A DNA stretch of 64,000 nucleotides. Source: Aphelocoma coerulescens (taxonomy: Eukaryota; Chordata; Aves; Passeriformes; Corvidae). The DNA is taken from NCBI RefSeq assembly GCF_041296385.1, contig NC_091015.1:88458004-88522003 (forward strand), given 5' to 3'. Positions 6,509 to 7,889 of the stretch are shown piece by piece (the stretch's first letter is position 1; every line of letters begins with the position of its first letter). A program made the position numbers and the translations under genes. The notes under the pieces are model-generated. The model was not told where the DNA came from, made no database searches, and saw only the letters and a program-made list of their open reading frames with translations.

Positions 6509-6791
6509 TGTTGCAGTGGGGATACTGTAACACGACTATATCAAACCAGGAGTCCCGTGGAAAAGAAATATATATGAACGGATTCTTGCTAGATGTTTCA
6601 GAGATGTTTATTTCCCCAGCTGCATGGCCGGGCTCTGCCGAGGAACTGCTACAGTCACGGGGCCCGAGCTGCTTTGCCCGCGCAGGGGAACACAGAACAA
6701 CCAATGGGGAACGAGGCTGACCAGGGGCAGGGAAACCCCGTGCCTCCCCTCAGGGCTCCCAGGGCTACAGGGCGGGGAAGGGACCCCGACA
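6509..6791 (-). mobile_element. Short ERV LTR next to the Y-box ORF
   Basis: On the minus strand it begins TGTCGGGGTCCC at 6791 and ends CCCCACTGCAACA at 6509, so it has TG...CA ends. It aligns along its full length with the LTR at 40451-40736. It holds a CCAAT box (CCCCATTGG) and a polyadenylation signal in GGGGAAATAAACATCTCTG. The flanking hexamers ACTGTA (6503-6508) and TTTCAC (6792-6797) do not match, so this is not a simple solo LTR. It more likely is the 3' LTR of a larger element on the minus strand. Its sister copy made a 6-bp duplication, which fits an ERV2 (beta/alpha-like) family. It keeps more CpG than the 40-kb copy. Confidence 0.85.
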
Positions 6792-6992
6792 TTTCACCTG
6801 TTTTATTTTAATAAAAGGAGAATGAAGACAACTGGATAACCATAACAAGAACAGTTTCAAAACAAAACAAACCACCCTCCTGAGTCTTTAAATGTCCAAA
6901 CAGATTCTCTGGAACATCTTAGGGCTGACAGAAGGGAGACAGAACTCTCTGAGCATGCTTTGTGGGGAAACAGGCAGGAGAGGGTTCCCTTT
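6792..6992 (-). other. Spacer between Y-box stop codon and LTR
   Basis: 201 bases without a gene. On the minus strand it has a purine/GT segment GGAGGGTGG and, just before the LTR, TTAAAATAAAACAGG, which contains an AATAAA-like signal. No standard polypurine tract abuts the LTR start. Confidence 0.5.
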
Positions 6993-7889
6993 TCATCCCC
7001 CACCCGGCATTGGAAAGGGATTTTTGGGGAAACAATTGGCAAAGGTATGGTTTTGTGAGGGAAACCATGGATGGAAAAACGGATTGGGAATACACTGGGG
7101 GTAATAGGACATAGGGTAAATGGGAAAGGTGGGATTAGGAAAGGGAGACTGTAGGGGGGGTTTACAATGGAGATATTGTCTAACAGGACTACGATTTTTT
7201 GCATATATACTGCCTTTCACAGGAACACCATCAGGCCCAGTGACCTGCCATGCTTGTAACCCTTTTCTACCTTGTATGATTTTGAATTCCACCTCTCCAT
7301 CTCCCAAGCTTGGGATGCATTTTTCAGGGTTATTCTTTTTAATAGCAGTTCTATGTACGAATATGTCTTGCTGGTTATCACTTCTTGTTATAAAACCATA
7401 ATTTTGTTTAACATTATACCATTTTACTATCCCTAAGATCTTAGCTACAATGGTTTTTTCCTTTTTCCGAGTGGCTGCTGTTTTCTGTCTCGCTGTGCCT
7501 TTGCTTTCTCTTTCAGTCGTCCCCGTGTTGGGATTGTCGGCGATGCTGGTTCCTGCGCGCTTTTCCTGGGGTCACGTTCGGGGCTGCGTGGGCCAGGCCG
7601 GGCCGCGCTGCTCAGTTCTCCGTGCGTCGCCTCCTCTGGTTGCAGCTTCAGGCGCTGCATCTCGGCCGGGCCCCCGAGCGATGACCCCCCCGCGCCCTGC
7701 TCCAGCGCACGTCTCAGCTGGGCGCGGCTCCGCACCACTGCCAGCCGCCGCCCGGGCGCTGCCCCTCTCGTTCGGGCGCTCACAGGGCTCGCTCCACCAC
7801 GCGCTGCACGGGGCCGGGTGGGCAACTGTATATTTCCCTGTCCAGTTTCCATGTACATAGGGCAAAGACCACCCTGGTCCCAGATATTA
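6993..7889 (-). pseudogene. Y-box type cold-shock domain ORF, ERV-associated
   Basis: Cold-shock domains bind single-stranded DNA and RNA; vertebrate Y-box proteins use them in mRNA packaging and translation control. The minus-strand frame is open from 7571 to the TGA at 6993-6995 (192 codons). The domain spans 7445-7209 and shows KILGIVKWYNV, the RNP1-like NYGFI, the RNP2-like DIFVH followed by RTAIKKNNP, then GDGEVEF and VTGPDGVPVKGS. These match vertebrate Y-box domains (by eye about 60 percent, from memory), with many conservative changes. Upstream, the same frame continues as Ala/Gly/Arg/Pro-rich sequence from 7886 to 7575, interrupted by one TGA at 7572-7574 in an ACGTGA context that a CpG C-to-T change could explain. 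The tail is rich in Pro, Phe and Tyr and lacks the basic/aromatic islands of YBX1. No in-frame ATG was found. It is called a pseudogene for the stop and missing start; it could be expressed by frameshift or splicing. No poly(A) tail is seen, and an LTR follows on the same strand. Confidence 0.82.
7445..7660 (-). CDS. 71-codon ATG ORF overlapping the Y-box 5' region
   Basis: An ATG at 7660-7658 opens a frame that ends in TAG at 7447-7445, just where the cold-shock domain begins in the neighbouring frame. Its product is hydrophilic, rich in Arg, Lys, Glu and Pro, and ends in a basic stretch (QPLGKRKK). The last codons cross two A-runs (7462-7466 and 7454-7459 on the minus strand). A one-base slip there would place this ATG in frame with the cold-shock domain. 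Whether it is a real start region, a decayed N-terminus or a chance ORF is unknown. Confidence 0.3.
   Translation of the reverse strand: MQRLKLQPEEATHGELSSAARPGPRSPERDPRKSAQEPASPTIPTRGRLKEKAKAQRDRKQQPLGKRKKPL

Follow-up and report, generated by a model that had tools for sequence, protein, structure and literature searches.

The Florida scrub-jay (Aphelocoma coerulescens) stretch analysed here, 64,000 nucleotides of contig NC_091015.1 (positions 88,458,004 to 88,522,003) and hereafter called the window, contains on its minus strand a 5'-truncated copy of a young, multi-copy long terminal repeat (LTR) retroelement that carries a Y-box cold-shock domain (CSD). The complete element measures about 2.2 kb: two LTRs enclose a short leader, a single frame of some 440 codons and a spacer of about 0.2 kb. 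Within the frame, a conserved N-terminal domain is followed by a GC-rich linker, then by the CSD and finally by a tail rich in proline and phenylalanine (P/F-rich). The full-length protein (about 440 aa) is larger than the frame first noticed in the window by a sequence-only reading, as the N-terminal part is missing in the window copy. With moderate confidence we regard the family as a young non-autonomous element of the ERVK type (a class of endogenous retroviruses, ERVs) with a captured Y-box gene under selection, whose product would serve as a Gag substitute or RNA chaperone, pol being supplied by an ERVK helper.

Copies and anatomy of the element

The assembly comprises 1,330,612,911 bases in 660 contigs, the window lying in the contig designated C3. 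The genome search scored the best 150 of 3327 first-look candidates (the latter number may include unrelated CSDs); all scored matches are 88-100% identical to the window frame, and the copy number is at least 150. We examined 50 of these 150 loci, namely the top 30 (first sample) and a further 20 drawn from ranks 31 to 145 in steps of about six (second sample). The 3' LTR is present in all 50 and both LTRs in 47 (28/30 and 19/20 in the two samples); only the 3' LTR was found within the fetched stretch for the window copy, L015 (first sample) and L033 (second sample). Most two-LTR loci have TG..CA ends, as printed for the first sample and part of the second, and exact 6-bp target-site duplications (TSDs) flank 38 of the 47 (21/28 and 17/19). 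The length is nearly uniform, 43 of the 47 measuring 2.17-2.26 kb: in the first sample 26 of 28 fall at 2.18-2.25 kb and two at 1.92-1.94 kb, and in the second 17 of 19 fall at 2.17-2.26 kb, one measures 2.05 kb, and L041, which seemingly holds extra internal sequence and runs to the edge of the fetched stretch, about 3.1 kb. The sequence-only reading had offered two explanations for the Y-box sequence beside an LTR, and the bolder one, capture of a Y-box coding sequence by a retroelement, is supported by these shared CSD-LTR junctions, duplications and lengths. Its opposite, copies regularly lacking the LTR, fails in the scrub-jay genome, other birds being represented by crow proteins and primers only.

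LTRs in the sampled copies are about 271-296 bp long. Divergence within LTR pairs (Kimura two-parameter distance) is 0.011-0.077 in 27 of 28 first-sample loci, L004 reaching 0.268 with a poor 5' LTR; in the second sample the two LTRs of L044 are identical, and those of L034, where the end of the 3' LTR is poorly placed, show an identity of 0.735. Our frame-finding script parsed 24 of the 30 first-sample loci, leaving six unparsed. In nine of the 24, an ATG situated 80-121 nt past the 5' LTR opens a frame of 436-453 aa; in eight of these nine it lies at 115-121 nt, and the frame measures 436-445 aa and starts with MEE(P/L)W. Across both samples, 14 of the 46 loci with two LTRs and a length of 1.85-2.3 kb keep a frame of 430-453 aa. 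A TGG resembling a primer-binding site follows 2-3 nt after the 5' LTR in all 23 parsed loci having one, and the 3' LTR is preceded by a AAAACGGGTGAAA-like stretch, partly purine.

A target-site duplication of 6 bp is the class value for ERVK-type elements. The family shows paired LTRs with TG/CA ends and 6-bp TSDs as expected of an ERVK-type LTR retroelement, and a 6-bp repeat also flanks both the window copy and a solo LTR in the window. The pro and pol genes are lacking, as judged by length only: the LTRs, leader, 440-codon frame and spacer fill the approximately 2.2 kb, and since this leaves no space for a reverse transcriptase or integrase, the element is taken to be non-autonomous. A 2.2-kb LTR element with one frame cannot encode its own reverse transcriptase and needs a helper.

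The copies are unevenly distributed. Five contigs, C34 (29), C35 (17), C36 (10), C37 (3) and C38 (5), hold by hand count 64 of the best 150 copies; together they make up 3% of the assembly (about 41.5 Mb), and some of their copies are duplicated loci. The scrub-jay W chromosome has been described as 41.5 Mb with five smaller W scaffolds, four of them here (PMC11631490). Because the sizes of C34-C38 add up to the 41.5 Mb of that chromosome, the family appears to be strongly enriched on the W chromosome. Within C3, three copies around 27.98-28.64 Mb recur around 35.03-35.69 Mb with equal scores and a constant offset of 7,055,340 bases, which suggests that a large block was duplicated or that the assembly is in error there.

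The encoded protein and selection on its frame

The Y-box motifs initially seen in the minus-strand frame 6993-7571 are present in its 192 codons, and the Pfam CSD family matches it with E=4.6e-19, above the family cut-off; among solved structures, those of the YBX2 and YBX1 CSDs are nearest (E about 1e-32). When 5.8 billion proteins were searched with the window frame, 10 matched: five belong to the New Caledonian crow (69-89% identity), two lie on short environmental contigs, and the other three are Y-box-like, from a lemur and a fish. A profile search widened the set to 103 proteins, mostly YBX proteins, and its corvid group included P0012 (440 aa, representing a 24-member cluster), P0013, P0014, P0015, P0016, P0018 and P0093 (New Caledonian crow), together with the Florida scrub-jay member P0017 (437 aa). 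No match was found in the viral contigs searched.

The CSD is common to the corvid group. In a 12-row alignment the P/F-rich tail is present in nine rows (the window's own included; two partial) and missing in P0016, P0018 and P0093; the tail of the window frame is shared with the crow proteins P0002, P0003, P0012, P0013 and P0014, and the gene model of P0004 reads from the tail into LTR sequence. The N-terminal domain, of about 110 residues, is common to P0012, P0016, P0017 and P0018. As a candidate for its identity, a retroviral matrix found no support by sequence: in Pfam the N-terminal pieces hit only Vezatin (E=0.013, 0.13) and, at E=0.21, a poxvirus family, and these hits stay under the cut-offs and are read as chance.

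In a tree of 25 CSDs (89 columns), the 13 from the element group into a single clade (support 99/98) that splits into two subfamilies, and these 89 columns do not single out the paralogue of YBX from which they derive. The element CSDs are 54-73% identical to that of human YBX2, and the W/F/F/H stacking positions, which we take to be the RNA contacts known from YB-1, are by eye kept in all 13. The second subfamily (P0017, P0018, P0093), found in scrub-jay and crow, has a CSD nearer to YBX than that of the window subfamily. Tail identity between the subfamilies is 58-62% in comparisons with P0017, and 36% over 22 residues with P0018. YBX proteins possess C-terminal basic/acidic regions. These are visible in P0019, P0020 and P0023, whereas the element has a P/F-rich tail instead, so that its C terminus is not of the YBX type.

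Selection was assessed by the ratio of nonsynonymous to synonymous variation (pN/pS), calculated without a tree for four pieces of the frame, with intervals taken over codons, which are not independent events. The ratio is 0.26 (95% interval 0.16-0.43; 46 loci) for the N-terminal 105 codons, 0.50 (0.29-0.87; 50 loci) for the basic stretch preceding the CSD, 0.30 (0.17-0.57; 50 loci) for the CSD and 0.37 (0.18-0.75; 50 loci) for the P/F-rich tail, the loci being best protein matches (50 from the best 150 of 3327), so that the CSD and tail values lean to conserved copies. The N-terminal piece, unlike the CSD and tail, lay outside the search query. Out-of-frame controls gave 0.66 and 1.38 (N-terminus) and 1.45 and 0.84 (CSD plus tail), all with intervals that include 1, and smaller sets are concordant (CSD 0.29 in 26 of 30 loci, four of different length being omitted; N-terminus 0.27 in 28 loci). 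As read from the aligned copies, these ratios demonstrate purifying selection on the N-terminal domain, the CSD and the tail in the loci sampled. The initial impression that the domain evolved as a protein before decay agrees with the values of 0.26-0.37 in its first part; the second part applies to the window copy only, since the family is young and has open copies.

The window copy

The coordinates of the window copy and of the related solo LTR are collected in Table 1. Two early observations hold without change, namely that an LTR lies 201 nt downstream of the CSD frame on the same strand (6509-6791) and that the same LTR occurs elsewhere in the window. The second LTR (40451-40736, plus strand) is a solo LTR with perfect 6-bp CTTAAT duplications; the two LTRs are 83.5% identical. 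The spacer of 201 nt compares with 211-231 nt in 23 other parsed loci.

Table 1. Parts of the truncated element copy and a related solo LTR in the window
Feature	Position	Strand	Remark
3' target-site duplication TACAGT	6503..6508	-	same 6-mer as 7825-7830
3' LTR, 283 bp, TGTC...AACA	6509..6791	-	AATAAA at LTR position 180
Untranslated spacer, 201 nt, from stop codon to 3' LTR	6792..6992	-	
192-codon open frame: basic stretch, Y-box CSD and P/F-rich tail	6993..7571	-	
Primer P_L_R_2 site, within the tail of the CSD protein	7054..7073	-	19/20 match
CSD, frame residues 40-127	7191..7454	-	limits approximate; Pfam 47-112, PDB match 40-127 of P0001
In-frame stop closing the linker frame of this copy	7572..7574	-	
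GC-rich, CpG-rich linker, 5' end of the truncated copy	7575..7824	-	
5' target-site duplication TACAGT	7825..7830	-	directly at the truncation point
Solo LTR, same family	40451..40736	+	TSD CTTAAT on both sides: 40445-40450, 40737-40742

The limits first given for the locus, 6509 to 7889, had to be corrected: including the TSDs it spans 6503-7830, and the element itself reaches to 7824. Similarity to five corvid proteins (P0012, P0013, P0014, P0015 and P0017) sets in at 7823-7824, and each of them extends 55 to 154 residues upstream of this boundary; P0016 has its main match from 7814, and a weak off-frame match (28%, E=1.7e-4) that starts further out, at 7843. The hexamer TACAGT occurs in the window with a frequency of 54 per 128,000 positions, so that its placement exactly at the homology boundary would be unlikely by chance (about 4 in 10,000). 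On this evidence the window copy is a 1316-bp insertion that bears the 6-bp duplication of the family and lacks the 5' LTR and the first 154 residues of P0012. It is defective, because its CSD frame has no ATG ahead of the tail and the upstream frame is closed by the stop at 7572-7574. Compared with P0012, all visible gaps are whole-codon (3, 2 and 4 in the linker, 1 in the CSD). The region 7512-7824 has a GC content of 0.73 and an observed/expected CpG ratio of 0.94, i.e. it resembles a CpG island, whereas in the CSD part this ratio is only 0.27.

Three further observations concern the window. The linker frame differs among the crow gene models P0003, P0013 and P0015. The first two letters of the truncated left end at 7824, which abuts the 6-bp duplication, are TG, as at the end of an LTR; this hints that an incomplete cDNA was integrated. 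Finally, 20506-21131 and 63365-63929 form another inverted pair, of repeat pieces of about 0.2-0.4 kb that are 89-91% identical, and probably represent a second repeat family.

Proposed role, alternatives and the crow plumage insertion

The CSD is a nucleic-acid binding fold, and an RNA-binding Gag substitute would be the simplest proposal for the protein. We envisage that an ancestral element swapped its downstream genes for an intronless Y-box (YBX) sequence copied from a vertebrate mRNA, and that the resulting fusion protein may act as a single-gene Gag substitute or as an RNA chaperone binding its own transcript. It would load the element RNA into particles of a co-expressed ERVK, which would give pol in trans. 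A preference in cis for the own transcript could account for the selection on the frame: each RNA should gain from its own protein, because a purely trans-acting protein would not keep the frames of many copies selected. As for the window copy, an integrase may have inserted an incomplete cDNA with a left end starting in TG.

Several results weigh against this proposal. No Gag family was found for the N-terminal domain in Pfam with E up to 10, for four proteins and four N-terminal pieces, although the HMMER filters drop most weak matches, and two N-terminal pieces gave no match in the PDB. Neither CSD-type RNA motifs (CATC) nor Y-box motifs are enriched within the element. Nine of the 47 two-LTR loci lack an exact TSD, one of them (L041) being unreadable, and the lean of the CSD and tail ratios towards conserved copies, mentioned above, belongs here as well.

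The best-surviving alternative, possible but rather unlikely in our judgement, makes the CSD protein a host-facing regulator, which would coat, stabilise or translationally control the element mRNA in the germ line, or shield it from silencing, while a helper Gag does the packaging. The CSD is clearly of the YBX type, with the presumed RNA-contacting W/F/F/H positions kept in 13 of 13, and selection on the protein is compatible with any function that aids its own RNA; yet such a regulator would not explain the N-terminal domain, on which selection acts separately (pN/pS 0.26), and host YBX tails are basic/acidic where that of the element is P/F-rich.

We consider it improbable that the frame is now functionless, the signal of selection being a residue of a few source copies or of the choice of good matches and the element a bare LTR-RNA parasite. 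In keeping with such a view, 32 of the 46 sampled two-LTR copies lack a frame of 420-460 aa, and the loci were picked by protein score; the N-terminus, however, lay outside the query and still has a pN/pS of 0.26 (0.16-0.43), and in the first sample the ATG is kept in 28 of 28 loci, with no stop within 105 codons in 26 of the 28. The pattern of conservation between the two subfamilies also speaks against a functionless frame, as four protein pairs are 60-66% identical in the CSD versus 31-37% in the N-terminus and 39-42% in the linker.

A multi-copy host Y-box gene family that merely lies beside LTRs is very hard to sustain and was rejected on the TSDs and LTR pairs: gene-prediction pipelines do list several copies as proteins, but the LTRs are paired in 47/50, TSDs occur in 38/47 and the length is near-uniform in 43/47, and a member of the family is polymorphic between crow populations (PMC7341801). 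A single processed YBX pseudogene next to an unrelated LTR, the refuting case named in the sequence-only reading, which the absence of an initiator ATG and a 5' LTR in the window copy might bring to mind and which would be expected to end in a poly(A) tail, is refuted by at least 150 matches in the genome, a common CSD-LTR junction in 50 of 50 loci examined, and the end of the copy itself, where an LTR and a TSD stand and a poly(A) tail is absent.

The reading of the family as a non-autonomous element with a captured, selected Y-box gene can be compared with several known systems. CrocERV29 and CrocERV31 are ERVs described as carrying captured host mRNA of KIT-ligand and nectin3, respectively (PMC4299795). 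The crow-family element resembles them as an endogenous retroviral group bearing host coding sequence; it differs in that the captured domain is a nucleic-acid-binding CSD fused in-frame to an N-terminal element domain, in showing selection across many copies, and in having no room for other genes. With YBX1/2/3 it shares the YBX-type CSD, but this CSD is element-borne, lies in one uninterrupted frame and lacks the basic/acidic repeats, and the N-terminal domain and P/F-rich tail were not seen in the YBX proteins compared. Non-autonomous LTR elements that retain one structural gene form a general class, without pol and with complete LTRs, presumably mobilised in trans. Unlike in these, the gene kept here is a fusion with a host-derived RNA-binding domain. 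Among the titles and abstract starts listed in a literature search (open-access only), none describes an ERV with a cold-shock or Y-box domain; a term search of the accessible text of a paper on songbird LTR elements found no 'Y-box', 'cold shock' or 'captured' (PMC6523648), and the passages of a paper on ERVK solo LTRs retrieved by other terms held nothing bearing on a CSD element (PMC11009239). Host-gene capture by retroelements is already known, while a captured Y-box CSD in an ERV is apparently undescribed in the literature found.

The family can be connected with a known insertion in crows. In the sections consulted of the paper concerned (PMC7341801), a 2.25-kb insertion upstream of NDP in the hooded crow, at chr1:112,179,329, is assigned to the ERVK subfamily corCorLTRK1b, with an LTR of 296 bp, and is associated with NDP expression and plumage in hooded versus carrion crows; corCorLTRK1b is described there solely as an ERVK-type LTR retrotransposon, with coding content unmentioned, and the genotyping primers P_L_R_2 and P_R_F_1 sit inside the insertion. 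Its dimensions agree with those found here (LTR 296 bp versus 271-296 bp, total 2.25 kb versus mostly 2.17-2.26 kb), and both internal primer sequences are present in the jay family at matching places. P_L_R_2 maps to window 7054-7073 with one mismatch, and in each of the 50 jay loci sampled it has two mismatches or fewer. Within the same tolerance P_R_F_1 fits 47 of the 50, always 16-20 nt beyond the 5' LTR and in 22 cases without any mismatch; in the remaining three, which lack a 5' LTR, it has 7 mismatches, and the window, where this part of the element is missing, contains no site for it. Twenty shuffled versions of each primer, compared with 10 loci, fitted with 5 mismatches at best. From P_L_R_2 to the element end the median distance is 582 nt (565-610); with a short flank added, this agrees with the 659-bp product that was published (PMC7341801). 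Because both internal primers match at the expected places, the 659-bp product fits and shuffled primers fail, the matches support placing the NDP insertion in the CSD element family. From its family membership and its size of 2.25 kb, this insertion is predicted to carry the same gene.

A more far-reaching account, which we advance only tentatively, would combine these elements: a retroelement took an RNA chaperone from the host germ line and remodelled its single structural gene on it, giving a minimal one-gene element with the CSD replacing the nucleocapsid, packaging in cis, pol provided in trans and the frame under selection. Among its insertions would be the candidate mutation for the grey plumage of the hooded crow.

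The captured RNA-binding domain is the core of the apparently sole gene of a young and abundant family, with measurable purifying selection. This lets one ask how a non-autonomous element keeps its gene selected, e.g. by cis-preference, and whether a CSD can replace a nucleocapsid. It also accounts for a set of 'uncharacterized proteins' in corvid annotations, and it means that the insertion family from which the candidate mutation for hooded and carrion crow plumage comes has a coding content not suspected before; if this is true, a gene for an RNA-binding protein, captured from the host, lies at a locus associated with speciation.

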